From: Halopiger goleimassiliensis
GTDB taxonomy: Archaea > Halobacteriota > Halobacteria > Halobacteriales > Natrialbaceae
Length of the DNA stretch: 64,000 nucleotides
Assembly (NCBI RefSeq): GCF_000455345.1
Contig: NZ_HG315690.1
Coordinates: 62,001 to 126,000 of the forward strand
Direction of reading: 5' to 3'
This document shows, one piece after another, positions 12,053 through 50,787 of this stretch. The position numbers and the translations under genes are program-made. Each line of letters starts with the position of its first letter. Position 1 is the first letter of the stretch. The notes under the pieces were generated by a model that was given only the letters and a program-made list of their open reading frames with translations, was not told where the DNA came from and ran no database searches.

Positions 12053-12198
12053 GTCCCTGTGGTTCGCCCGAGGGCGTAAAGTGGTTACTTTCGTCGCCCC
12101 GTCTTCCGCCGATCGTTCCCGACGGTCTCGCGGCACCCGTCGCACGCTCGAGAACGTGCTTCGAAAGGTACAAGCACGCGACGAACGGATTCGATGAC

Positions 12199-12483
12199 AT
12201 GGAACTGCGGGTCACCGAGAGCACCGAGGACGAACTCTCGATCGAGATCGCCGGGGAGGATCACACGTTCATGAACGTCCTCAAGGGTGCCTTGCTCGAG
12301 CACGACGACGTCAGCGCCGCGACCTACGACGTCAACCCCGAACAGTCGGGCGGACAGACCGAGCCGATCCTGACGATCAAGACCGAGGGCGGCGTCGATC
12401 CGCTCGAGGCCCTCGAGGAGGCCGCCGCGGACGTCCGCGACAAGGCCGTCACCTTCCGCGAAACGTTCGAATCGGCTGCCTAA
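12199..12483 (+). CDS. rpoL: DNA-directed RNA polymerase subunit L (Rpo11)
   Basis: 94 residues, the usual length. Archaeal RpoL (eukaryotic RPB11/AC19) dimerises with subunit D to form the assembly platform of RNA polymerase. The core motif [26 protein letters not shown] matches the alpha-N-terminal-like dimerisation fold, in which the H-T-x-x-N-x-L element is invariant; the second half, ILTIKTEGG...[12 protein letters not shown], completes it. ATG 12199 begins exactly at the family N-terminus (MELRVTES). It stands alone, divergent from the rhomboid gene. Confidence 0.95.
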
Positions 12484-25971: not shown

Positions 25972-27093
25972 ATGACGACACCGAGCACGCCATCGATTCG
26001 ATCGACGGAATGGCCGGCCATACGTACGCACGGGAGCGAACGTATTCGAGCGGCCGGCGTTGCGGGCGCGGGAGGTGCCGGATTTCCCTCCTACGCGAAG
26101 TGGCAGGACCTCGAGACGGTCGATTCCCTGCTGGTGAACCATCAGGAGAGCGAGCCGAACTACGTCGCCGACAAGTGGCTCGGGGACACCCACGCGGCGG
26201 CGTTCGCAACGCTGTTCGAGACGTTACTCGAGCAGGCGTTCGACCTGATCGTCGTCAGCGCGAAATGGATAGACCGTACGGAGTACCTGCAGGAACTCGA
26301 GGCCGAAACCGGTGGAACCGTGATTCCACCGGGGGAACTCCCGCTGGATCGGGAGGCCGAATCGGGCGTCGTGTTCGCCTACACGGACGACGAGTACCAG
26401 TACGGCATGGAGAGCGTCCTGCTGAACGTCGTCGACGGAACGGTTATCGGGGACGATCTCCCGACGGACCACGGCTGGCTGGTCCAAAACACGGAGACGA
26501 TGTACAACATCTACCGGGCACTCTCCGAGGGGGTACCCGTGACGCGGACGTACGTCCACGTCAGCGGCGACGTTCCGCGAGATCGGTTCCTCGAGGTACC
26601 GGTCGGAACGCCCGCGAACGACCTCCTGAACGCGGCCGGACTCTCTGCCGAGGCACTTCCCTCGGAGACGGTACTCGCGGATGGCGGTCCTGGCTGGTGT
26701 TTCCCGATCGACACGTCGCCGGCGGAGTACGGCGTCACCAAGAGTACGAACGGACTCCTCGCTCTCGACGAACGGACGGTCGACGGGAGCGAACTCGGTA
26801 CCGGTCGACTCGACGTCCGCGACGAGTACGAATGGGATCGTCGGACGGTTCCACCCGAACCGACGGAAATCGAACCGACGTCCGTTCGGATCCCGTTGAT
26901 TACGAATCCGGAATACGACGTCGTCGAGCCAGGGGTCCCATCCGTCAGCGTCGGCGACCGTGTGGAACGCGGCGAGCGCATTGCGAACCCCAGCCCAGAC
27001 GGGATCAGTATTCCCCATCACGCGTCGATCGACGGGACGGTTTCGGCGGTCACCGAGACGGTCATCGAGATCGAATCCCCCTCGAGTGGGTAG
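25972..27093 (+). CDS. PduS/RnfC-like protein lacking iron-sulfur motifs
   Basis: 373 residues. GAGGAGFPSYAKW (~32-44) is the signature of the NADH/FMN-binding fold of RnfC, NuoF and PduS. Next come LLVNHQESEPNYVADKWL (nucleotide-site region), GMESVLLNVVDGTV, and an SLBB domain at ~190-225 (YVHVSGDVPRDRFLEVPVGTP). The C-terminus (~300-373) is a barrel-sandwich domain resembling RnfC-N (VSVGDRVERGERIANPSPDGISIPHHASIDGTVSAV...). The order matches PduS, but the ferredoxin-like Cys pairs are absent; only one Cys (GWCFPID) is visible. It may bind flavin without passing electrons to clusters. ATG 25972 begins MTTPSTPS. Role unknown; it stands beside an HTH-10 gene. Confidence 0.75.
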   Translation: MTTPSTPSIRSTEWPAIRTHGSERIRAAGVAGAGGAGFPSYAKWQDLETVDSLLVNHQESEPNYVADKWLGDTHAAAFATLFETLLEQAFDLIVVSAKWIDRTEYLQELEAETGGTVIPPGELPLDREAESGVVFAYTDDEYQYGMESVLLNVVDGTVIGDDLPTDHGWLVQNTETMYNIYRALSEGVPVTRTYVHVSGDVPRDRFLEVPVGTPANDLLNAAGLSAEALPSETVLADGGPGWCFPIDTSPAEYGVTKSTNGLLALDERTVDGSELGTGRLDVRDEYEWDRRTVPPEPTEIEPTSVRIPLITNPEYDVVEPGVPSVSVGDRVERGERIANPSPDGISIPHHASIDGTVSAVTETVIEIESPSSG

Positions 27094-41320: not shown

Positions 41321-42403
41321 TTACTGCGGGTCCTCGTCGTAGATCTCGGGGTTCTCCTCGCCCTGGACGTCGACCACGGCGAGTGCGCCCTTGTGGACGA
41401 CCCGGCTGAGCGCGTGGTCGACGATTTTGACCGGGCCGGGGACGTGGAACTCCATCTCGCCGACCGTGGTCGTTCCGGGGGTGACCGGTGCCGTCTCGAT
41501 GTTCTTGTCGGGTTCCGATAGCAGGTCGCCGTCGCGGTAGTAGTTGCTCCAGACGTTGCCGATCGGGTGGAGCGCGCTGGTCAGGTTGGGACCGCCGTTG
41601 GCGAAGTAGACCCGGGCGGTTTCGCCGACTTCGGCCTCCATCGGTCCGACGCCGTCCTCGGTGAGCCCGTAGGCCTGGCCGTTGAACACCACGTACGTCG
41701 GATCTTCGCGTTTCATCGCGTCGAAGTCGAAGCCGTGGTGACCCTCTTCGCCGACTTTGCCGTCGGTGTAGAGCTCGTGCTGGCCGAGGTAGTACTCGTT
41801 GTCCACCTCGGGCAGGCCCTCCTCGGGTTCGACGAGGATCGTGCCGAACATGCCGGAGCTGATGTGGTGGTCCATGTTCGGGACCGCACAGTGGTAGATG
41901 AACGCCCCGGCGTACTCGGCCGTGAAGCTGATCTCGGCCGCCTTCTCGCCCGGTGTGATGGTGGTGGCGTCGGCACCACCACCGGGGCCGTAGACCGCGT
42001 GGAAGTCCACGTTGTGGAGGGTCATGTTCATCTCCTCCGGCACCTCGAATCGGAGGTTGACCCTGTCGCCCCGGCGGACGCGGACCATCGGCCCGGGCAC
42101 CTGGCCGCCGAAGGTCATGAAGTCGAACGTGACTCCAGGTTCGATCTCGGCGGTCACGCGCTCCGTCTCGAGCGTGATGTCGTGTTCCCGGGGTTCGTCC
42201 CAGTCGACCGGCGGCGGGATGTCGGTCGGATCGCGAGCGATCCTGTCGGCGTCCACAGGTTCGGCCGGAGCCAGCCCCTCGTCGGTCGGTTCGGGCTCTG
42301 GCTCTTCGGTGGTCGGACTGCCGAGGCAGCCGGCGACTGCCGCGATGCCGGTGATTCCTGCGCCCTTTACGAACGTTCGACGGTTGAGCCGGTTTTGGGT
42401 CAT
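41321..42403 (-). CDS. nirK: Copper nitrite reductase NirK, copy 1
   Basis: 360 residues. Reduces nitrite to nitric oxide outside the membrane. NRRTFVKGAGITGI is a Tat signal with lipobox VAGC (C26). Two cupredoxin domains: HNVDFH (130-135) carries the type 1 His, catalytic Asp (D133) and a type 2 His; YHCAVPNMDHHISSGMFG carries the type 2 His, the type 1 Cys (C172), His and Met; LHPIGNVW the active-site His; VDHALSRVVHKGAL the last type 2 His. ATG 42403 has GAGGAG as ribosome site; the 9 residues upstream in frame are rejected. A palindrome CGAACATGTTCG lies 77 bases before it. It is first in an operon with halocyanin 1. Confidence 0.93.
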   Translation of the reverse strand: MTQNRLNRRTFVKGAGITGIAAVAGCLGSPTTEEPEPEPTDEGLAPAEPVDADRIARDPTDIPPPVDWDEPREHDITLETERVTAEIEPGVTFDFMTFGGQVPGPMVRVRRGDRVNLRFEVPEEMNMTLHNVDFHAVYGPGGGADATTITPGEKAAEISFTAEYAGAFIYHCAVPNMDHHISSGMFGTILVEPEEGLPEVDNEYYLGQHELYTDGKVGEEGHHGFDFDAMKREDPTYVVFNGQAYGLTEDGVGPMEAEVGETARVYFANGGPNLTSALHPIGNVWSNYYRDGDLLSEPDKNIETAPVTPGTTTVGEMEFHVPGPVKIVDHALSRVVHKGALAVVDVQGEENPEIYDEDPQ

Positions 42404-42770
42404 TGTCTTTCTCCTCATTCCCATATACACCTCTCATATGTACACCAATTTCGTCTTTTCCTGAATGGTGGGAACTATCCGAACATGTTCGGCATGGGGG
42501 TCGTCAACGGCTCCATCGTCAACGGCTCTCGTCGAGGCTCCGCTGCTCGTGCGCTCCCTCGTCGAAACCGGTCCGAGACCCTCCGCTTTCGTCCGACGAG
42601 GAACCCGATCTCCGTGCGCGCCGTCCGTAACGCCCTCGACTAGCCGAACACGCCGACGTGGGATGGCTCCCACCAGCGGGTACCCGCGGAACGTACTCGC
42701 GTGATGGATCGTGGCTCGAACTCGACGATCGTGGACGCTGCTCCCGCCGAACCGTCGAGTCGGCCGAAAA
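42404..42770. other. Regulatory gap between nirK1 and DUF2249 gene 1
   Basis: 367 bases with no gene. It holds the nirK1 ribosome site and the palindrome at 42480-42491. Frames in it (for example from 42465 on the plus strand) have Ser/Arg-rich shadow composition. Confidence 0.5.
42480..42491. promoter_or_regulatory. Palindromic site CGAA-N4-TTCG upstream of nirK1
   Basis: CGAACATGTTCG, a perfect palindrome (perfect over 14 bases as CCGAACATGTTCGG), 77 bases before the nirK1 ATG. It is one of six exact copies in this island. Likely binding site of an HTH-10 regulator such as the one encoded at 48190. Confidence 0.65.
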
Positions 42771-43046
42771 TCAGTCGCCGGCCGCCGGGTTCCAGATAAC
42801 CGTCACGACTTCAGACTCGAATTCGACCGACTCGTAGGCGTAACCACGGTCGTCGAGTTTCGGGAAGAGGAACTGCGGGACGCGGTCGTTCCGCTGGACG
42901 AGGACCGTCTCGTCCGGGAGTTCCTCGAGCGTCTCGAGGGTGTTCTTCAGGGGTTCCGGCGGTCCCAGCGTTCGGACGTCGATCACCTCGCGCGGCCGTT
43001 CGGTCGGTGCGTCGGTGCGTTCGACGACGGTCGACGGTGACTGCAT
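42771..43046 (-). CDS. DUF2249 protein 1
   Basis: 91 residues. The DUF2249 (SirA/TusA-like) core is EVIDVRTLGPPEPLKNTLETLEELPDETVLVQRNDRVPQFLFPKLDDRGYAY, seen in parts as a VDVR-x-L-x-P strand-helix, a 'L-P' turn, and a helix before the second strand pair. TusA-like folds carry sulfur or bind metals, and DUF2249 genes often sit in denitrification clusters; the function is not settled. Its start ATG at 43046 has a near-copy of the island palindrome 39 bases upstream. Confidence 0.8.
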   Translation of the reverse strand: MQSPSTVVERTDAPTERPREVIDVRTLGPPEPLKNTLETLEELPDETVLVQRNDRVPQFLFPKLDDRGYAYESVEFESEVVTVIWNPAAGD

Positions 43047-43084
43047 ACAGCGAGGTTCGTGGGCTCGCTCCCTGTGTTTCGTCC

Positions 43085-43096
43085 CGGACGTGTTCG
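43085..43096. promoter_or_regulatory. Near-copy of the palindrome before DUF2249 gene 1
   Basis: CGGACGTGTTCG has one mismatch to CGAA-N4-TTCG and lies 39 bases before the DUF2249-1 start, the same distance as the exact sites before DUF2249-2, DUF2249-3 and the HTH-10 gene. The match in spacing supports it. Confidence 0.5.
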
Positions 43097-43212
43097 GGTA
43101 CGCGTATCGAGCGATCGCGTGGGTAGCGGAGGGGGAACCGCTCGAGGCTCGACGGTGAGTCGGAGAAAGGGAACGGTGCGAGAACCGAACGAAAACGGGT
43201 GTATCGAACGGC

Positions 43213-43881
43213 TCACAGCGCGACGTACAGCTGTCCGATGCCGGCGAGCACGAGCACGACGCCGGCGATGCGGATCACTCGATCGACGTGTTCGGCGATC
43301 CGCCCGGCGCTTATCGCGTACCCCGACGCCGTCGCGACCGTGGCGGCGACCATGAGCGCTCCGAACCCGGCGGCGTACGTCCCGAGCACCAGCGCTGCCT
43401 CGAACGGCGGCATGGTGAGCGATCGAAACGCCAGCCCCAGGAAAACGGGGAGGACGCAGGCTGTCGCCGCCAGGGCGTACATCGCGCCGAAGAGCCCGAA
43501 TCCGAGGACGGTCGATCGCCGTTCGGGCAGGAGGACGTGCACGGCACCGCTACCGCCGTACAGCACCCACAGCCCGAAGCCGATCAGGGCGACGCCGACG
43601 CCGTACTCGAACAGCGGCAGCGCCCGCTCGACCGTCTCGCCGGCCACGATCGCCGCGATCGACAGCACGCCGAGGACGGCCATCGCGCCGACGGCCGCCG
43701 CGATCCCGCGAGCGAGCGTCCCGGATAGCGGCGGCCTCGTCTCCTCGCCGGTCGCGGCGACGTAGTAACCGACGTACCCCGGAAGCAGGGCGTAGGCACA
43801 CGGCGAGAAGAACGTCGCCACGCCGACGCCGAGGGCGAACGCCATCGTCCCGAGGAGTTCGCCGCTCACCATCTCACCCAC
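43213..43881 (-). CDS. CcdA/DsbD-like transmembrane disulfide carrier
   Basis: 222 residues, six membrane helices. CcdA moves reducing power across the membrane by a pair of membrane cysteines, seen here in FFSPCAYALLPGYVGYY and ATACVLPVFLGLAF. It would reduce a thioredoxin-like partner outside the cell for copper-site or cofactor assembly. It overlaps the end of the TlpA gene by 8 bases, so the order SCO-TlpA-CcdA is one operon. Confidence 0.9.
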   Translation of the reverse strand: MGEMVSGELLGTMAFALGVGVATFFSPCAYALLPGYVGYYVAATGEETRPPLSGTLARGIAAAVGAMAVLGVLSIAAIVAGETVERALPLFEYGVGVALIGFGLWVLYGGSGAVHVLLPERRSTVLGFGLFGAMYALAATACVLPVFLGLAFRSLTMPPFEAALVLGTYAAGFGALMVAATVATASGYAISAGRIAEHVDRVIRIAGVVLVLAGIGQLYVAL

Positions 43882-44404
43882 CTCCCGCCGCGTCGATCGC
43901 CGATCGGATCTCTTCGGCGGACTTCCGGCCGCGCCCGGACCAGGTGACGACGTTGTTCTCGTCGAGGACGTACGCGTACGGGACCCCGGAGCCGTCGAGC
44001 GCCTCGGTCAGTTCGAGGTCGGTGTCGAGGGCGACCGGCCAGTCGCCGTCGTGTTCGCGCCACCACTCCGCGACGTCCTCGCGAGTGGTTGTGTTGCCGA
44101 TCGGCTCGCCCGTCACCGAGACGAACTGGACGTCGTCGCCGACCTCCTCGTGGACCCGGCCCAGCGGCTCCATCATGTCCTGGCAGACGCCACACCAGGT
44201 GGCGAACAGTTCGACGAACGTCACCCGGCCGGGTTCGGGGATCGTCGCGGTGCCGGCCTCGCTCCCGGGGGCGTCGATCGTCTCGAGGTCGACCGGTTCG
44301 ACGACCGCGTCGTCCTCGAGCAGGTCCCAGTCGCTGGCGGCGATCGCGCCGCCGCCGAGGGCGGCGAGGCCGGCGGCTCCGGCGATGACCTCGCGACGGC
44401 GCAT
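43874..44404 (-). CDS. TlpA-like thioredoxin, exported
   Basis: 176 residues. The N-terminus MRRREVIAGAAGLAALGGG is a Tat-like signal. The thioredoxin fold follows: VTFVELFATWCGVCQDMMEPLGRVHEEV gives the active C-G-V-C pair, and ALDTDLELTEALDGSGVPYAYVLDENN supplies the cis-Pro region. Probably keeps the SCO or cupredoxin cysteines reduced, with reductant from CcdA. Start ATG 44404 is three bases after the SCO stop (44408). Confidence 0.9.
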   Translation of the reverse strand: MRRREVIAGAAGLAALGGGAIAASDWDLLEDDAVVEPVDLETIDAPGSEAGTATIPEPGRVTFVELFATWCGVCQDMMEPLGRVHEEVGDDVQFVSVTGEPIGNTTTREDVAEWWREHDGDWPVALDTDLELTEALDGSGVPYAYVLDENNVVTWSGRGRKSAEEIRSAIDAAGGG

Positions 44405-44407
44405 GGG

Positions 44408-45193
44408 TTACCACCCCTCGACGACCGCGCGGGCGGCGTCGACGATCTCGTTCCCGCCCGGGGAGCCGCCCGTCCAGGCCCGTTCGACGAGCCCGTCCTT
44501 GTTCACGAGCAGGATGAGCGACGTGTGCGTGATGTGTCGCTCGTGATCGTCGTGCCCGTCGTCCATCTCGTCGTCGTCCATCTCGTCGTCCATCTCGTCG
44601 TCCTCCATCTCCTCGTCCATCCCGCCGTTCGACTCGCCGTGTTCGAACGCCACGCCGAAGGTCTCCTCGACGACTTCCTTGGCGTCCTCGTGGCTCTCCG
44701 GCCGCAGGAAGTACCAGTTCCCGGCGTCGAAGTCGACGCCCATCCGCTCGCCGTACTCCTCGAGCACCTCGGCCGTGTCGTACTCGGGGTCGAAGGTGAT
44801 GGGGAGAAACGCCATCTCGTCTTCGTAGCCCTCCTCGTGGGCGTCCGCCTGCACGCGCTGGAGGGCGGCAGTCAGCCCCGGACAGACGGTCGGACAGGCG
44901 GTGTAGATGAACGTTAGCATGCAGTGACGTTCTCCCTCGAACTCCGCGGTCGAGACCGTCCGGTCGTGTAGCGGGGCCGGTACGGTCACCTCGGGAATCG
45001 CCTCGCCGTAGATCGGATGCGGAATGTCCGACTCCTGGATCCGATCGTGGTTCTCCGGCGGCTCGAGAACGACCCCCTCGGGCGCGTCGCTGGTGCTGCG
45101 TTGCAAGCAGCCGGCCAGCGACGCGCCGAGCGCGACCGTCCCCGCCGCGCGCAGCACGGTTCGCCTGTCTATGGACGTAGATTTCGGGCTCAT
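44408..45193 (-). CDS. SCO-family copper chaperone with a Met/Asp/Glu-rich insert
   Basis: 261 residues. IDRRTVLRAAGTVALGASLAGC is a Tat lipoprotein signal read as two parts (RR at 10-11, lipobox C29). The SCO1/SenC fold carries the copper cysteines in YTACPTVCPG (C100 and C104) and the conserved His in ITHTSLILLV (H223). Immediately before that His is a 27-residue insert, 192-218, made of repeated M-D-E-E and M-D-D units plus HDDH, probably a copper-gathering arm. SCO proteins deliver Cu to CuA or cupredoxin sites; here NirK or halocyanin are obvious clients. ATG 45193 chosen; a GTG at 45220 is possible and places the upstream palindrome 42 bases away. Confidence 0.9.
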   Translation of the reverse strand: MSPKSTSIDRRTVLRAAGTVALGASLAGCLQRSTSDAPEGVVLEPPENHDRIQESDIPHPIYGEAIPEVTVPAPLHDRTVSTAEFEGERHCMLTFIYTACPTVCPGLTAALQRVQADAHEEGYEDEMAFLPITFDPEYDTAEVLEEYGERMGVDFDAGNWYFLRPESHEDAKEVVEETFGVAFEHGESNGGMDEEMEDDEMDDEMDDDEMDDGHDDHERHITHTSLILLVNKDGLVERAWTGGSPGGNEIVDAARAVVEGW

Positions 45194-45250
45194 GATCTCA
45201 GGTATCTCTCGGCTCTCCACGGGCTAAAGCGCGATCTGGATTCCCATTCG

Positions 45251-45273
45251 CTTAGAAAAGGCGAATATGTTCG
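45251..45273 (-). promoter_or_regulatory. Palindrome plus TATA-like element before the SCO operon
   Basis: CGAATATGTTCG at 45262-45273 is an exact copy of the island motif. Directly downstream on the minus strand is CTTTTCTAAG (45251-45260), a plausible TATA box, so a regulator bound to the palindrome would touch the basal factors. The distance to ATG 45193 is 69 bases, and 42 to the GTG at 45220. Confidence 0.6.
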
Positions 45274-45322
45274 TCCTGGTGGGTCGTTCGCCGGGCCGGC
45301 ACGATCGTCGCTGATCGAATCG

Positions 45323-45910
45323 TTACGGCCCGTCCTCGAGGACGGGGCGGGTCTCCTCGTTGAACAGGTCGATCGCCCGGACGACCTGGGTTGGCAGTTC
45401 GGGTTGGGGGTCGGCCATCGCGGGTTCGTCGTCGGGGTCGGGCCAGCCGACGACCACCCGGCCGACGTTGCCGGCGACCTCGTGGGAGGTACAGACCTGC
45501 TGGGTGTCGACGTAGTCGTAGACGCCCGCCTGCTCGAAGGTCTGCTCGTACGAGGAGCCGACACCGGACAGTCGTTCGCTCCCCCAGGCGTCGACGCCGT
45601 GCGGGGACCGGTGTGGGCCGTGCCCGTCCTCGTGGTAGCCGGTGACGTCGTGGCGGCCGGTCTCGACGAGCCACTCGACGGTCCCGCCCTCGACGACGTG
45701 GACGACCTGCGGCTCGAACTTCGGGTGTGGCTGGGAGTTCGCCGTCACCGTGGTGCGTTCGGCAGGCGTTCCCAACGCTCCTGCGTCCTCCGGCGGCTGT
45801 CCGTCGCCGTCGCTGCCTCGATCGGTCGTGCCCTCGAGACAGCCCCCGAGAGCGACGCCGACCGCGATCGCTGCCGATCGGAGCGCGGTTCGGCGGGAGA
45901 CGTGGGTCAT
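45323..45910 (-). CDS. Halocyanin-domain blue copper lipoprotein, copy 2
   Basis: 195 residues, same plan as copy 1: Tat signal SRRTALRSAAIAVG with lipobox LGGC, an acidic linker (GSDGDGQPPEDAG), then the cupredoxin domain TVTANSQPHPKFEPQVVHVV, ligand His in GRHDVTG, and QVCTSHEVAGNVG with Asn in place of the axial Met. It follows nirK2 by 42 bases in the same direction and presumably is its electron donor. The last 210 bases match copy 1 with a single difference, while the 5' half is clearly diverged. Confidence 0.88.
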   Translation of the reverse strand: MTHVSRRTALRSAAIAVGVALGGCLEGTTDRGSDGDGQPPEDAGALGTPAERTTVTANSQPHPKFEPQVVHVVEGGTVEWLVETGRHDVTGYHEDGHGPHRSPHGVDAWGSERLSGVGSSYEQTFEQAGVYDYVDTQQVCTSHEVAGNVGRVVVGWPDPDDEPAMADPQPELPTQVVRAIDLFNEETRPVLEDGP

Positions 45911-45952
45911 GGGTTGGATCGTGGGTGGCCCGTCTCGCGTTAGATTGCGGCT

Positions 45953-47050
45953 CTAGGGATCCTCGTCGTAGACGTCGGGGTTCTCTTCGCCCTGGACGTC
46001 GATGACGCCGAGTGCGCCCTTGTGGACGACCCGGCTGAGCGCGTGGTCGACGATCTTGACCGGGCCAGGGACGGGGAACTCCATCTCGCCGGCGGCAGTC
46101 GTCCCGGGGGCGACCGGTGCCGTCTCGATGTTCTTGTCGGGTTCCGACAGCAGGTCGCCGTCGCGGTAGAAGTCGCTCCAGACGTTGCCGATCGGGTGCC
46201 AGGAACTCATGAGGTTCGGACCGCCGTTGGCGAAGTAGACCCGGGCGGTCTCGCCGACCTCGGCTTCCATCGGCCCGACGCCGTCCCCGGTGAAGGCGTA
46301 GGCCTGCCCGTTGAACACCACGTAGGTGGGATCTTCGCGTTTCATCGCGTCGAAGTCGAAGCCGTGGTGACCCTCTTCGCCGACTTTGCCGTCGGTGTAG
46401 ATCTCGTGTTGACCGAGGTAGAACTCGTGGTCGACCTCGGGGAGCCCGTCTTTCGGTTCGACGAGGATCGATCCGAACATGCCGGAGCTGATGTGGTAGT
46501 CCATGTTCGGGACCGCACAGTGGTAGATGAACACGCCCGGGTATTCGGCCGAGAAGCTGATCTCGGCGGGGTCGTCGCCCGGCGCGATCGTCGTCGCGTC
46601 CGCACCGCCACCGGGACCGTAGACGGCGTGGAAGTCCACGTTGTGCATTTCCATGTTCATGTCGTCCGGGACGTCGAACGTCAGGTTGACCCGGTCACCC
46701 TGGCGGACGCGGACCATCGGCCCCGGAATCTGCCCGCCGAAGGTCATGAAGTCGAACGTGACACCAGGTTCGATCTCGGCGGTCACGCGCTCCGTTTCGA
46801 TCGTGATGTCGTGTTCGCGGGGCTCGTTCCAGGTGACCGGATCGGGGACGTCCGTGGGATCGCGGGCGATCCGATCGGCGTCGACGTCCTCGGCCGGCGG
46901 TAGTCCGTCGTCCGAACCACCCTCGGTGCCCTCGTCGGGATCTTCCGATCCGTCGCCGCCGAGACAGCCGGCAACCGCGATTGCGCTTCCCGCACCCACC
47001 GTTGTCAGGAACCGTCGTCGGGTCGAGTCGTTTCGGGTCATTGTCCTCAT
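45953..47050 (-). CDS. nirK: Copper nitrite reductase NirK, copy 2
   Basis: 365 residues. Signal TRRRFLTTVGAGSAIA with lipobox VAGC; an acidic Gly/Asp spacer follows. Copper ligands match copy 1: HNVDFH, YHCAVPNMDYHISSGMFG, SWHPIGNVW and VDHALSRVVHKGAL. The main differences are Y for H in the C-loop and a different spacer. Both copies keep the catalytic Asp of HNVDFH, so both should be active. It is coupled with halocyanin 2. No exact palindrome precedes it; only a half-site TGTTCG lies near 47119. Two start codons are possible (47050, 47041). Confidence 0.93.
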   Translation of the reverse strand: MRTMTRNDSTRRRFLTTVGAGSAIAVAGCLGGDGSEDPDEGTEGGSDDGLPPAEDVDADRIARDPTDVPDPVTWNEPREHDITIETERVTAEIEPGVTFDFMTFGGQIPGPMVRVRQGDRVNLTFDVPDDMNMEMHNVDFHAVYGPGGGADATTIAPGDDPAEISFSAEYPGVFIYHCAVPNMDYHISSGMFGSILVEPKDGLPEVDHEFYLGQHEIYTDGKVGEEGHHGFDFDAMKREDPTYVVFNGQAYAFTGDGVGPMEAEVGETARVYFANGGPNLMSSWHPIGNVWSDFYRDGDLLSEPDKNIETAPVAPGTTAAGEMEFPVPGPVKIVDHALSRVVHKGALGVIDVQGEENPDVYDEDP

Positions 47051-47514
47051 TCTGGGATAGCTGCCGATAACAGTTCAAAAGAGACAACGGTTCTCGCTGA
47101 CCGGTAAACGATTGTAGATGTTCGGTGGGCACATGAGTTTATATCCCGGCACCAGCAAACGTCGGTCGTTTTTACGTCCGTCCCCGTTTCTCCGTCGGTG
47201 TCGCTCGTACGGACCGGTCAGGGACTGTTCGGACGTCCATTCCGGGCCTTTCGCTGACGCCGTGACCGGACGGAGCTTATCCGTCGATCACGATTCGGGC
47301 CTGATCGCACACGCTTTATCGACCCTGGCGGGCGAGTACGCACGCAAAGGTCCAACGTTGACCGACAGTCGAGGAGCCGGAATCGACGTTCGGTCCCTGT
47401 GGAACGATAGACTCGTGGTTGACACCGTGCGATTCCGATTCGAAGACGCATGCGTAGCCGAAGCAGGTGCTCCCCGCGACGAAGACGGGCTGCTACGAAC
47501 GACGGGGTCGCAGG
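47051..47514. other. Long gap upstream of nirK2, unexplained
   Basis: 464 bases. It contains the nirK2 promoter (CTTTTGAA near 47078-47085 on the minus strand and a half-site TGTTCG at about 47119-47124) and a TATA-like TTTATATCC (about 47138-47146) that would drive transcription to the right, into no recognised gene. A plus-strand frame through 47260-47480 reads DHDSGLIAHALSTLAGEYAR and LWNDRLVVDTVRFRFEDACV but has no start with support. Could be a decayed gene or a non-coding RNA. Confidence 0.4.
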
Positions 47515-47748
47515 TTACGCCTCTACTTTCGGGAACCGGGCGACGAACTCCTCGGGGCCGACTTTCTCGACCTCGTACGCGTCGGCGTCGAAGCTGTCGA
47601 CCTCCGCCTGGAACTCGTAGAACAGCGGTTTGGGTTCGTGGTCGTTGACGATGGTCAACGTCTCGCCGGGCTCGAGCTGTTCGAACTCCTCGTGGATGGT
47701 CGGATGGCGCTTCACCGGTGGGATGTCCCTGACGTCGAGTCGGGTCAT
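47515..47748 (-). CDS. DUF2249 protein 2
   Basis: 77 residues. Core MTRLDVRDIPPVKRHPTIHE, then FEQLEPGETLTIVNDHEPKPLFYEF, the recurring 'L-x-P-G-E-x-L-x-I-x-N-D-H-x-P-x-P-L' pattern of DUF2249, and a second strand pair ending FVARFPKVEA. It probably binds metal or another redox-pathway component via the H-x-P-x-P-L loop. The exact palindrome CGAATACGTTCG lies 41 bases before its ATG. Confidence 0.8.
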   Translation of the reverse strand: MTRLDVRDIPPVKRHPTIHEEFEQLEPGETLTIVNDHEPKPLFYEFQAEVDSFDADAYEVEKVGPEEFVARFPKVEA

Positions 47749-47788
47749 GTACTCGACGGTGGGGTCGCCTGATGGATCGGTATTCGCA

Positions 47789-47800
47789 CGAATACGTTCG
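47789..47800. promoter_or_regulatory. Palindrome before DUF2249 gene 2
   Basis: CGAATACGTTCG, an exact CGAA-N4-TTCG match 41 bases upstream of the DUF2249-2 ATG at 47748. It is followed on the minus strand by a second, overlapping dyad ATTCGTGCGAAT (47782-47793). Confidence 0.6.
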
Positions 47801-47826
47801 GGAGGAGGTGACGCCGGCCCGAGCGG

Positions 47827-48054
47827 CTAGGCAGCGTGTTCGATGTGAACGTGCCAGAGATCGTCGGACTGGTGACTCTCGTGGTCGAACCCGCGGCTCT
47901 CGAGTACTTCGTAGAGGGGCTTCGGTTCGAACGGGGCGATCAGGTGAAGGCGTTCGCCCGGGTCGAGCGACTCGAGGGCGTTCATGATGTCCTCGAACGG
48001 CGGGCCGTCGATCTCGCGAACGTCGATCGTCAGGTCGGCGGATTCGGTTGCCAT
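47827..48054 (-). CDS. DUF2249 protein 3
   Basis: 75 residues. TIDVREIDGPPFEDIMNALESLDPGERLHLIAPFEPKPLYEVLESRGF, read in parts, has the same VDVR, L-D-P-G-E and P-K-P-L elements as copy 2. ATG 48054 with GAGGTG just before it is preferred over an in-frame ATG at 48159, which would place the start inside the divergent gene's regulatory region. The exact palindrome at 48094-48105 is 40 bases upstream. Divergent from the HTH-10 regulator gene. Confidence 0.78.
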   Translation of the reverse strand: MATESADLTIDVREIDGPPFEDIMNALESLDPGERLHLIAPFEPKPLYEVLESRGFDHESHQSDDLWHVHIEHAA

Positions 48055-48093
48055 CACCTCGATAGTCGGCCGCCCGACGATTGGAATTTCGTC

Positions 48094-48105
48094 CGAACGT
48101 GTTCG
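48094..48105. promoter_or_regulatory. Palindrome before DUF2249 gene 3
   Basis: CGAACGTGTTCG, exact match, 40 bases upstream of the DUF2249-3 start and 36 bases left of the second palindrome. The two sites share the 135-base divergent gap with the HTH-10 gene. Confidence 0.62.
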
Positions 48106-48140
48106 TAGCGGGTGCAATTCCCAGGTCGTAGGAATTCTGC

Positions 48141-48152
48141 CGAATATATTCG
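48141..48152. promoter_or_regulatory. Palindrome before the HTH-10 regulator gene
   Basis: CGAATATATTCG, exact match, ends 38 bases before the regulator ATG at 48190. A TATA element ATATA (48164-48168) lies between, 22-26 bases before the start codon, so the site abuts the basal promoter as expected of an activator. It implies autoregulation. Confidence 0.65.
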
Positions 48153-48189
48153 TAGCCATGTGGATATAGGTTCAGTTAGAAGATCCCCT

Positions 48190-48864
48190 ATGGCCCAGGC
48201 AACCCTCACGATCACGATGCCGGAACAGGTCTGGATCCAGCAGCTATCCACCTCGTATCCGGACGCGACCTTCCGCGTGCTCGCGGCCGTTCCCGGCTCC
48301 AACTCCGGGTTCGCGCTGGTACGGATCACCGGTCCCGACGTGGCCGAGGTCGTCGACGAGATGAACGACCACGCCCAGATCACCGAACTCACCCTCGCCC
48401 AGTGGAGCGAAAACGAGGCGACGGTCCACTTCGAGACCACCCAGCCGCTGTTGCTGTTCTCCTCGAAGGAGTCCGGCATGCCGATCGAACTCCCCGTCGA
48501 AATAACCGACGGCGAGGCGACCATCGAGGTCACCGGCTCCAGGGAACGGCTCGCGGAACTGGCCGAACAACTCGAGCGCTTCGGCCTGAAGTACCGGATC
48601 GAGCACGTGCGCGAGCGCCTCCACGAGAGCCAACTCCTCTCGGAGCGACAACTGGAAGTCATCGCGGCCGCCGTCGAGGAGGGCTACTACGACACTCCAC
48701 GACGGTGTTCGCTGACCGAACTCGCCGAACAGCTCGGCATCGCGAAATCGACCTGCAGCGAGACGCTCCACCGCGCCGAAGAGGCGATCATCAAGCGGTT
48801 CGTCGAGGACGTCCCCGGGCTCGAGGACGAACAGTCCCTCGAGGAACAGCTGGCGACGAGTTAA
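48190..48864 (+). CDS. HTH-10 family regulator of the denitrification island (DmsR/NarO-like)
   Basis: 224 residues. The N-terminal region (~1-150) starts MAQATLTITMPEQVWIQQLS and has two alternating alpha/beta units (FRVLAAVPGSNSGFALVRI; TVHFETTQPLLLF). The C-terminal HTH_10 domain is LLSERQLEVIAAAVEEGYY, DTPRRCSLTELAEQLGIAK and STCSETLHRAEEAIIKRF. Related haloarchaeal regulators DmsR and NarO activate anaerobic respiration; NarO carries an N-terminal cysteine-rich sensor, absent here, so this one is closer to DmsR-type. Its gap carries two palindromes and it stands among the target-like promoters, so I infer it binds CGAA-N4-TTCG. ATG 48190 fits its TATA box. Confidence 0.82.
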   Translation: MAQATLTITMPEQVWIQQLSTSYPDATFRVLAAVPGSNSGFALVRITGPDVAEVVDEMNDHAQITELTLAQWSENEATVHFETTQPLLLFSSKESGMPIELPVEITDGEATIEVTGSRERLAELAEQLERFGLKYRIEHVRERLHESQLLSERQLEVIAAAVEEGYYDTPRRCSLTELAEQLGIAKSTCSETLHRAEEAIIKRFVEDVPGLEDEQSLEEQLATS

Positions 48865-49020
48865 CCGTTCGCGCCCGGAGCGCGCGGTCGACGAGGCGCG
48901 CCAGCGGGTGATCGTCCTCCATGCCTGGGTACACATTCCGGATCGGTTTCTCCCGTAGTCGTCGTTCCAGCGATGGTCGACGCGTCGGGATCCGCGTTCG
49001 GGCGGCGTCTTAATTTAGTT

Positions 49021-49038
49021 GGGCGAATATGTTCGCCC
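49021..49038. promoter_or_regulatory. Extended palindrome upstream of the FeS-NrfD operon
   Basis: GGGCGAATATGTTCGCCC is a perfect 18-base inverted repeat around the exact motif CGAATATGTTCG (49024-49035). It lies about 150 bases before the first gene, farther than the others, so it may act through the nearer site at 49115 or a more distant start. Confidence 0.6.
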
Positions 49039-49114
49039 CCATTCTCACGACCTGGAAATCGGAGCGACACTTCATCGGGATCTAGTTGTGAGTGCTGAGT
49101 AGAGTAGTCGCAAA

Positions 49115-49126
49115 TGAACGTATTCA
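49115..49126. promoter_or_regulatory. Symmetrical near-copy TGAA-N4-TTCA
   Basis: TGAACGTATTCA differs from the island motif at both outer positions but keeps dyad symmetry. It lies 63 bases before the FeS gene start. Assigned as a weaker site by position. Confidence 0.4.
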
Positions 49127-49188
49127 AGTACGCATCGTTCGCTAACCACTGGGTGAAGGACTAGTATGACAAGAGGTGTTGTGCGGAA

Positions 49189-50787
49189 ATGAGCGCGGAC
49201 GACGAATCGTTCCACCCGCTCGGCAGTGAGTGGGAAGGTGAACTCGAGTCGATGCTCGACGAGACCGAGTACGACACGGATCTCGGTCTCGAGATGGCCA
49301 AGGACGCCATGCGCGTCACGAAGGGCGAACTGTCCGAGGCCGAATTCCACGAGAAGTACCACGAGGACGTGATGGCGGAGTTCGGCGAGGACCAGCGCCC
49401 GACCCAGGAGGCCTTCGAGGAGGCCCAGGCCGTCGAGGAGGGCACGTTCTCCCGGATGCTCGAGAAGTTCGACGGCGACGGCGAGGAAGGCCGTCGCGAC
49501 GTGATGAAGAAGATGGGTGCCGGCGCGGCGTTCCTCGGTCTCGGTGCGTGGGGAGCCGCCGACGGCTCCGACCCCGAACCGAACGTCGCCGCCGCAGAGG
49601 ACGACCACGGCGACGACGACGGCCTCCAGTGGGGGATGACGATCGACCTCGAGCAGTGTGACGGCTGTCTCTCCTGCATGCAGGCCTGTGGAATGGAGAA
49701 CAACCTCGACCAGGGGGTCAACTGGATGTACGTCCTCGATTACGAGGACGGCGGCCCGGACACCAGCCAGAACCGTCTCGTCCGGCCGTGTCAGCACTGT
49801 ACCGACGCGCCGTGTGAGAAGGTCTGTCCGACGACGGCCCGGCACACCCGCGACTCGGACGGCCTCGTGCTGACCGACTACGACGTCTGTATCGGCTGCC
49901 GGTACTGCCAGGTCGCCTGTCCCTACGGCGTCAACTACTTCCAGTGGGACGAACCCGACATCTCGACGGACGAGATCGCCGCGCAGGCCGAGCGAGAAGG
50001 GATGAACGGCGATCACATGACCGACGAACGCGGTCGCTGGGTCGACAGCCGTGCGCCTCGCGGCGTGATGAGCAAGTGTACCATGTGCCCGACGCGCCAG
50101 GACGGCCACATGGGCGATGAGAAACGCGGAACGACGGCCTGTGAGGACGCCTGTGACCCTGGTGCGATCCAGTTCGGCGACGTGAACGACGAGCGCAGCG
50201 ACGCCGGCATGTACAAGAAGAACCCCAGCCGTGGTCGCGCCCTGTGGGGCCTCCACGGGGACGTCCCCGATCCGGACGCCCTCGCCGAAGAACTCTCCGA
50301 CTCCGACGACGACCTCGAGTCGATCGTCGAGGCCTCGGAGGAACTCGACGAGGACCTGATCGCCCGCGCTATCGCCATCGAGATGACCGGCGAAGAGATG
50401 GGCGAAGGGCCGGAACACGGCACGAGCAACCTCGCCGAGACCGAACGCGACATCCTCGAGTTCCTCGAGTTCCTCTCCGACCAGGGGCTCGACCTCGAGG
50501 ACGAGGAACTGCTCGACGAACTCGGTATCTCGGACCCGCAGGACTACCTCGAGGCTCAGGAAGGCAACCCCGAGTCGAACTTCAACCTGCTCGACGACAT
50601 CGGGACGAACCCGAACGTTCAGTACCTCGGCAACGAGCCCGGACCACACGCCGAGCAGGTCGAGGGTCCCGTGGCGTACGAGGACGTGATCTACCCGCGC
50701 GCTGACGAGGAAACCGTGAACCTGGTCGACAAGCGCCAGGAGGTCCTCAACGAAGGGACCGTCGGAGACGCGGGGGTGTCGCTATGA
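49189..50787 (+). CDS. Four-cluster 4Fe-4S electron-transfer protein (DmsB/NrfC/PsrB type) with long N-terminus
   Basis: 532 residues. The core (~150-345) has four cysteine groups as in DmsB and PsrB: CDGCLSCMQACGMENN, CQHCTDAPCEKVCP, CIGCRYCQVACPYG, and CTMC...CEDACDPGA. Before it is a ~100-residue acidic helical preamble, then GRRDVMKKMGAGAAFLGLGAWG (102-122), which looks like a Tat signal placed unusually deep in the chain. After the clusters comes a ~190-residue acidic, helical C-terminal extension. It should pass electrons between a quinol site in the next gene's protein and a soluble partner. No molybdopterin subunit is encoded beside it. Its stop overlaps the NrfD start by four bases (ATGA). 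Confidence 0.85.
   Translation: MSADDESFHPLGSEWEGELESMLDETEYDTDLGLEMAKDAMRVTKGELSEAEFHEKYHEDVMAEFGEDQRPTQEAFEEAQAVEEGTFSRMLEKFDGDGEEGRRDVMKKMGAGAAFLGLGAWGAADGSDPEPNVAAAEDDHGDDDGLQWGMTIDLEQCDGCLSCMQACGMENNLDQGVNWMYVLDYEDGGPDTSQNRLVRPCQHCTDAPCEKVCPTTARHTRDSDGLVLTDYDVCIGCRYCQVACPYGVNYFQWDEPDISTDEIAAQAEREGMNGDHMTDERGRWVDSRAPRGVMSKCTMCPTRQDGHMGDEKRGTTACEDACDPGAIQFGDVNDERSDAGMYKKNPSRGRALWGLHGDVPDPDALAEELSDSDDDLESIVEASEELDEDLIARAIAIEMTGEEMGEGPEHGTSNLAETERDILEFLEFLSDQGLDLEDEELLDELGISDPQDYLEAQEGNPESNFNLLDDIGTNPNVQYLGNEPGPHAEQVEGPVAYEDVIYPRADEETVNLVDKRQEVLNEGTVGDAGVSL

Follow-up and report, generated by a model that had tools for sequence, protein, structure and literature searches.

The nirK island of this Natrialbaceae haloarchaeon is part of a 64-kb stretch of DNA (the window) and contains two genes for the copper nitrite reductase NirK on the minus strand, the first copy at positions 45953 to 47050 (TIGR02376, E value of 8.5e-112) and the second copy at 41321 to 42403 (TIGR02376, 5.1e-111). 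Also on the minus strand are the genes for a DUF2249 protein (42771 to 43046, PF10006), for the copper chaperone SCO1/SenC (44408 to 45193, PF02630), for a small protein assigned by gene call and homology and DUF2249-like by resemblance (47515 to 47748), and for another DUF2249 protein (47827 to 48054, PF10006), the start of which was set by its homologues. The latter is divergently oriented to a plus-strand gene for an HTH_10 regulator (48190 to 48864). Further downstream, the gene for a DsrO/NrfC-like Fe-S subunit (49189 to 50787, plus strand) is located behind a conserved 5′ leader. A mini-ORF in this leader, MNVFKYASFANHWVKD, was discarded because its reading frame is not conserved.

Six exact copies of the palindrome CGAA-N4-TTCG, designated box 1, are positioned in gaps of this island within 6.6 kb, as had been listed in a sequence-only reading of the same DNA. 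The copy CGAACATGTTCG at 42480 to 42491 is in the promoter of the second nirK copy, 76 bases before the ATG at 42403; the region upstream of the first nirK copy possesses only a degenerate box 1, CGAACATCTACA, with a gap of 62 bases. The sequence CGAATATGTTCG occurs twice, at 45262 to 45273 in the SCO1/SenC promoter, 41 bases before a GTG at 45220 and 68 bases before the ATG at 45193, and at 49024 to 49035, 153 bases before the Fe-S gene, a gap conserved at 152 to 155 bases. The copy CGAATACGTTCG at 47789 to 47800 is 40 bases before the small gene (38 to 40 in homologues), CGAACGTGTTCG at 48094 to 48105 is 39 bases before the DUF2249 start at 48054, and CGAATATATTCG at 48141 to 48152 is 37 bases before the HTH-10 start and is followed by the TATA-like GATATAG. 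A longer DUF2249 open reading frame starting at 48159 would cover the copies at 48094 and 48141, but the homologues begin at an ATG equivalent to that at 48054, so that both copies are intergenic. A near copy with one mismatch was also verified at 43085 to 43096, 38 bases before the DUF2249 start at 43046; the homologous genes are likewise preceded by box 1 at a gap of 38. A further near copy proposed at 49115, with two mismatches and located inside the long 5′ leader of the 49189 gene, was dropped as a box 1 site. The claimed spacing of 38 to 42 bases before five starts was remeasured as 38, 40, 39, 37, and 41 bases, the last of these depending on use of the GTG at 45220.

Evaluation of these sites needs to consider how often box 1 occurs by chance. 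The window contains 13 exact copies instead of the 7 counted before, and shuffles of the window yield 2.9 copies (standard deviation of 1.9) instead of an expected value of about one; none of 100 shuffles reached 13. Seven exact copies are outside the island, six of them in genes, where formerly one at 26038 had been found, and the seventh, at 12182, is just ahead of 12199. Together with 234 copies of CGAA-N4-TTCG in the genome, these could point to the dyads as a mere by-product of base composition or coding, the DNA being GC-rich and abundant in CGAA and TTCG. The center of the palindrome argues against this: it is CGAA-YRYR-TTCG in all six island copies but in only one of the seven others in the window (26037), and in 25 of the 234 in the genome. 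With six of 25 YRYR sites within 6,556 bases of 3.906 Mb, the island cluster is far from chance (binomial P = 3.9e-12, to be read with the caveat that the YRYR class was chosen after these sites had been seen). Since intergenic position, a fixed gap, and conservation across many genera point in the same direction, the by-product explanation is refuted for the island copies and is hardly credible at all. The raw genome count was not used as evidence because most copies are genic, and a backward pattern was too rare to be a fair control, so that RTAY and shuffled-arm controls were taken instead. The same genome contains three further YRYR sites within 1.3 kb (C1:580075-581336), two of them exactly 38 bases ahead of starts.

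Box 1 is conserved in the surroundings of 48190 orthologues: 43 named loci of this kind contain 111 YRYR sites, compared to 6 RYRY sites and at most 2 sites for each of 11 composition-matched control palindromes. Of the YRYR sites, 105 are in the intergenic 17% of the sequence, and 17 loci surrounding other HTH_10 genes contained none. The gap to the start peaks at 37 to 45 bases, plus 152 to 155 for the Fe-S gene, and in the aligned promoters, counted from the start of the site, AA follows at positions 17 to 18 and a TATA-like rise at 22 to 26. Ahead of the 48190-like gene itself, box 1 is present exactly in 30 of 43 cases and with one mismatch in another 5, the 11 control palindromes in none; 31 of 60 nirK promoters contain an exact box 1 and about half do not.

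The 12-bp dyad has been published as the semi-palindrome CGAAYATDKTYG for denitrification promoters of Haloferax mediterranei and was studied by mutagenesis and RNA-seq (PMC10062603, PMC11218638); its mutation reduces the anaerobic activity of the nos and nor promoters in reporters of this species (PMC10062603). Four of the six island sites agree exactly with this consensus, while those at 47789 and 48094 fit only CGAA-YRYR-TTCG, and the sites are located at promoters of denitrification genes. The claim that a box 1 regulon exists is strongly supported and, for Haloferax, has been published before. As late as 2024, its regulator was described as unknown (PMC11218638), and according to PMC10062603, haloarchaea do not possess homologues of the regulators that control denitrification in bacteria.

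The protein encoded at 48190 contains the HTH_10 domain (PF04967, E value of 1.5e-20) as do NarO and DmsR, and its match to BAT (PF15915) reaches 23.7 bits, below the cutoff of 25.8. A profile scan did not find DmsR_N (PF24277) in it, and it has no N-terminal cysteines, which indicates that it is not a NarO/DmsR protein. The N-terminal CXnCXCX7C motif defining this family reportedly goes back to Hattori in 2016. Repeated beta-alpha-beta elements precede the HTH in the AF2 model; a Foldseek comparison of the model with the PDB gave no informative match, and no sequence relatives were found there. The recognition helix, AKST-SETLHR-E, is nearly invariant in 48190-like proteins. A paralogue at C2:379685 (L135) could bind box 1, too, because its recognition helix is identical.

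Alternatively, box 1 may be the site of the NarO/DmsR family, in this genome the protein with DmsR_N and HTH_10 domains at C1:1295064, with the 48190 gene being merely a target. According to genetic evidence cited in PMC10062603, H. volcanii needs NarO to denitrify, the genome studied here encodes a NarO/DmsR-type protein with CXnCXCX7C (L121, PF24277, E value of 1.5e-50), the sequence CGAACGTGTTCG is found 76 bases upstream of a paralogue one cysteine short (L114), and box 1 precedes a Halomarina NarO-like gene at a gap of 38. However, H. mediterranei was reported to be without NarO and uses box 1 nevertheless (PMC10062603), and the nar/narO intergenic region of H. larsenii has no box 1. Among 145 genomes, which are not independent of one another, the mean number of CGAAYATRTTCG was 3.85 with and 1.64 without nirK (P = 2e-9), that of a control pattern 3.69 and 3.33 (not significant). 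It was 3.15 with a strong 48190-like gene and 0.87 without (P = 4e-7; 5e-5 at the genus level), compared to 2.98 and 1.73 with and without a NarO-like gene (P = 0.01; 0.06 at the genus level). Both effects are hard to separate because both genes are common (NarO-like in 123, 48190-like in 130 of 145). Ten nirK-positive genomes without a NarO-like match retain a mean of 2.7 sites, and two nirK-positive genomes of one genus with a NarO-like but without a 48190-like gene have none. Raw counts over all genomes were 2.79 and not above the control pattern with 3.52; the signal of box 1 resides in its location and its link to nirK and HTH-10. The former suggestion of a general NarO/DmsR site is unsupported in this form, and NarO/DmsR binding appears improbable. 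That the 48190-type proteins are the best candidates for the box 1 binder, as had also been proposed, is supported by motif abundance following 48190-like genes more closely than NarO-like ones and by retention of the sites in denitrifiers without NarO-like genes. Judged by the position of box 1, the 48190 gene is a candidate for autoregulation.

A second palindrome, TTCYCA-N5-TGRGAA (box 2), which had escaped the sequence-only reading, is centered about 20 bp from box 1 (19.5 to 21.5 bp) in nirK, qnor, nosZ, SCO, cox, and HTH-10 promoters. In the island, TTCCTGAATGGTGGGAA at 42458 to 42474 is between box 1 and nirK, 5 bases from box 1; TTCTAAGCGAATGGGAA on the minus strand at 45241 to 45257 is 4 bases from box 1 and 47 bases before the ATG at 45193, a start that agrees better with the two-box geometry than the GTG at 45220; and TTCCCAGGTCGTAGGAA at 48118 to 48134 is flanked by the two divergently oriented copies of box 1, at a distance of 6 bases from that at 48141, and is conserved at about −72 of the HTH-10 orthologues. 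Of 38 thinned nirK promoters, 11 contained TTC-N11-GAA at +17/+18, compared to 0.21 per offset, and 11 of 27 HTH-10 promoters contained it at −22/−23. Of 391 genomes, 85 contain the composite of both boxes, as opposed to 1 for the backward control, mostly ahead of qNor, NirK, cox, radical SAM, and related genes; some promoters do not possess box 2. Literature searches gave no match to box 2 sequences for haloarchaea, and box 2 is apparently new. NarO presence was considered as an explanation of box 2, with no association by eye among the composite-positive genomes.

The HTH-10 protein might also bind box 2, with lower affinity, so that two dimers of a single regulator would occupy a tandem operator. 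The boxes share their palindromic form, TTC/GAA-rich arms, and this center distance, and they swap their order relative to the gene between HTH-10 and nirK or SCO. Their arms differ, CGAA..TTCG versus TTCYCA..TGRGAA, box 1 stands by itself in several DUF2249 promoters, and box 2 occurs in some nirK, halocyanin, and narO promoters that do not contain an exact box 1, which makes a single regulator unlikely. Binding of box 2 by a small HTH_20 (ArsR-like) regulator as second input is somewhat less doubtful, albeit still a minority view: in H. larsenii and Halomarina, such a gene adjoins nirK and the 48190-like gene, in Halostagnicola and in the genome studied here it is next to NarO-like genes, and the composite is upstream of HTH_20 genes in several genomes. 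This link is one of gene neighborhood.

On the basis of the observed sequence, position, conservation, and spacing of the boxes, box 1, best with a YRYR center, would be the upstream activating site of a haloarchaeal regulon responsive to anaerobiosis or NO, comprising nirK, qnor, nosZ, halocyanin, SCO, DUF2249, a radical SAM and COX1-like pair, cox, and the regulator itself. Box 1 is directly upstream of BRE and TATA, its end about 38 bases before the start in the presumably leaderless genes, so that a dimer on it could recruit TBP/TFB. Most likely, this dimer is a 48190-family HTH-10 protein that also controls its own gene. A second dimer on box 2 would probably cooperate or compete with the first because box 2 is on the same face of the DNA at a distance of about two turns. 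This joint model is regarded as probable. Its extension to a composite operator for two regulators, a Cys-less 48190-family HTH-10 on CGAA-N4-TTCG and a different dimer on TTCYCA-N5-TGRGAA, with the proximal box setting the contact to the basal factors, is conceivable but tentative. If true, archaea would possess a logic gate with two inputs, for instance oxygen and NO or nitrite, independent of FNR/NNR-type regulators.

While box 1 is largely published, the comparative evidence for the type of regulator reading box 1 is new, and box 2 apparently so. One protein family can now be named as a candidate to test for the haloarchaeal denitrification motif, the position of the site would be explained by its neighborhood to BRE and TATA, and a second box with fixed phasing, apparently unreported, was outside the scope of the earlier single-site mutants. 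Who senses oxygen and NO in haloarchaea becomes a directly testable question.

Compared to known systems, HTH_10 is common to the 48190 protein and to Bat, the bacterio-opsin activator, with a partial BAT match below the cutoff, but PAS and GAF domains are missing, and box 1 differs from the bop upstream site. NarO and DmsR of H. volcanii and Hbt. salinarum, the regulators of anaerobic respiration, share HTH_10 but differ by DmsR_N and the N-terminal cysteines, and NarO-like proteins are encoded by separate genes in this genome. A further protein to be compared is E6P09_00735 of H. mediterranei, a bacterio-opsin activator-like protein of the HTH-10 type, which is encoded in the nirK-nor cluster behind a copy of the motif and was named as a possible main regulator there; a 48190-like gene occupies the same setting in H. 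larsenii. The H. mediterranei system shares with the island, which belongs to another family, the CGAAYATDKTYG dyad, the targets nirK, nor, nos, DUF2249, halocyanin, and a bacterio-opsin-activator-like gene, and the clustering of copies in the nirK-nor region. Added to it here are the fixed position adjacent to BRE/TATA, box 2 at about 20 bp from center to center, and the class-wide association with 48190-like genes.

All six exact copies of the palindrome CGAA-N4-TTCG (box 1) that the sequence-only reading had placed in the 6.6-kb nirK island (42480, 45262, 47789, 48094, 48141, and 49024) were found at these positions, as was the near copy at 43085. Its claim that only one copy is located inside a gene was wrong, since six of the seven exact copies elsewhere in the window are genic. 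The window contains 13 exact copies versus 2.9 expected, and a YRYR center is present in all six island copies versus one of the seven others. The complete genome contains 234 CGAA-N4-TTCG sites, only 25 of them with YRYR center, and six of these 25 are in the island (P = 4e-12, for a class that was set up with the sites already seen). A second cluster of three YRYR sites at C1:580075-581336 on contig C1 adjoins genes for radical SAM, ThiS-like, and COX1-like proteins, with two of the sites ending 38 b upstream of starts; the remaining YRYR sites are mostly genic, above all those centered on CGCG. The exact copy at 12182-12193 (CGAACGGATTCG), 5 b upstream of the gene start at 12199, is probably a chance occurrence.

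With the protein of the HTH_10 regulator gene 48190 (48190..48864, plus strand) as query, 60 loci were retrieved, 43 orthologous and 17 around other HTH_10 genes. The orthologous loci contained 111 YRYR sites, 105 of them intergenic, versus 6 RYRY sites and 0 to 2 sites for each of 11 palindromes of the same composition; no YRYR site occurred in the 17 other loci. HTH-10, DUF2249, cupin, and further genes showed gaps to the start that clustered at 37 to 45; at the Fe-S gene they clustered at 152 to 155. Exact box 1 was present in 31 of 60 nirK promoters, usually 78 to 82 b upstream of the ATG. Aligned promoters showed box 1, 5 b further on a BRE-like AA, then a TATA-like rise and the start at about +51. 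In this arrangement, the position of box 1 would allow an archaeal activator to contact TFB/TBP. Several relatives have one more box 1-like site, a third, across the HTH-10 start (-13) (loci L054-L081, e.g., L075, L076, L080, and L081), where it could mediate auto-repression; it is absent from the window.

The window corresponds to C1:62001-126000 of a 3.9-Mb haloarchaeal genome, with Natrialbaceae as the closest named relatives. The island encodes two copper nitrite reductases, DUF2249 proteins, a CcdA-like protein, a redoxin, SCO1/SenC, halocyanins, the HTH_10 regulator, and an Fe-S/NrfD-like operon. Upstream of the first NirK copy (45953-47050), unlike the second, box 1 is only degenerate (CGAACATCTACA), and regulation may differ between the two nirK genes. 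The leader of the Fe-S gene 49189, in the interval 49036-49188, is conserved over about 115 nt with the pattern TTCTCACG..TGGAAATCG..TCTAGTTGTGAG..GAGGTG, with GAGGTG being Shine-Dalgarno-like in relatives; the 5' UTR may be structured or regulated. A 16-aa open reading frame within this leader was not conserved and was rejected.

The 48190 protein, the candidate binder of box 1, contains HTH_10 with a BAT match below threshold and possesses neither DmsR_N nor the N-terminal cysteines, both of which are present in the product of C1:1295064 (L121). This is one of two DmsR/NarO-like regulators of the genome, the other being C1:2766152 (L114); one of the two is without the fourth cysteine, and a box 1 site is positioned 76 b upstream of its gene. 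Among 145 genomes, motif counts were higher where nirK or a strong 48190-like gene was present, and the link to NarO-like genes was less clear (joint quasi-Poisson fit, z = 5.2, 3.3, and 2.3, respectively). Sites were kept in ten nirK-positive genomes without a NarO-like match, in which a looser search yielded partial, HTH-level matches only (best E 5e-28, in genome G121), and there were no sites in two nirK-positive genomes, both from the same genus, that had no 48190-like match. This associates a 48190-type protein with box 1 without being proof of binding; the genomes have common ancestry, for which genus averages corrected only in part. The recognition helix is near-invariant across 24 relatives, including the paralogue C2:379685 (L135; 40% identity, same helix), and because of this common helix the paralogue is a possible co-binder. 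No exact YRYR box 1 was found near C2:379685.

A second palindrome, TTCYCA-N5-TGRGAA (box 2), is located at 48118-48134 (TTCCCAGGTCGTAGGAA) between the sites 48094 and 48141, at 42458-42474 (TTCCTGAATGGTGGGAA) adjoining 42480, and on the minus strand at 45241-45257 (TTCTAAGCGAATGGGAA) adjoining 45262. The form TTCCY-N6-TRGGAA, expected 0.02 times in the window, occurs at 8 places in the genome, two of which outside the window pair at the same offset with a box 1-like site containing one mismatch each, at cox (C1:1945290) and at nosZ (C2:248201, assigned by PF18793 and PF18764). Box 2 is kept at about -72 in the HTH-10 promoter in most Natrialbaceae loci, and among 38 unselected nirK promoters 11 had a TTC-N11-GAA beginning at +17/+18 relative to box 1, versus 0.21 per offset. 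The two-box pattern matched in 85 of 391 genomes, with 1 match for the backward control; box 2, at its fixed distance from box 1, occurs class-wide in promoters of nirK, qnor, nosZ, cox, and HTH-10 genes. Downstream of 30 retrieved two-box loci were mainly qNor, NirK, cox II, radical SAM, HTH_20, and Fe-S genes, with identities taken from N-terminal sequence and not in every case from a Pfam scan; a few of these loci were chance matches inside genes. The centers of both boxes are 19.5 to 21.5 bp apart, two helical turns, from which we infer that two dimers occupy one face of the DNA. The box nearer to the promoter is box 2 at nirK, SCO, qnor, and nosZ but box 1 at HTH-10, with the other box distal in each case. 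Box 2 could be bound by HTH_20 proteins, whose genes adjoin those of 48190-like or NarO-like regulators, by NarO, or by the HTH-10 protein proposed for box 1. A box 2-type palindrome is also located 40 b upstream of a protoglobin/MCP (HemAT-like aerotaxis) gene, C1:2997268 (L255). No report of box 2 was found in a literature search that took in few subscription journals.

Starting from the observed sequences, positions, spacing, and conservation of the sites, an HTH-10 dimer at box 1 would recruit basal factors under low oxygen or with nitrogen oxides, the site at 48141 would provide positive autoregulation of the HTH-10 gene, and box 2 would contribute a second input.

The motif CGAAYATDKTYG has been published for H. 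mediterranei, so box 1 is known and the genome studied here is a further example. There, mutation of box 1 in the nos and nor promoters lowered promoter activity, and the nirK-nor cluster contains CGAAYATDKTYG repeats together with a co-located bacterio-opsin-activator-like gene, E6P09_00735 (PMC10062603, PMC11218638). As cited in these papers, Hattori 2016 had reported a similar motif in other haloarchaea, and the 2024 paper describes the binder as undisclosed (PMC11218638). The motif is real and mostly known; what is new is that a second box lies in phase with it and that a candidate binder family open to testing is named. The published H. mediterranei gap of 79 b agrees with the most frequent gap, 78 to 82 b, in the nirK promoters that have an exact site.
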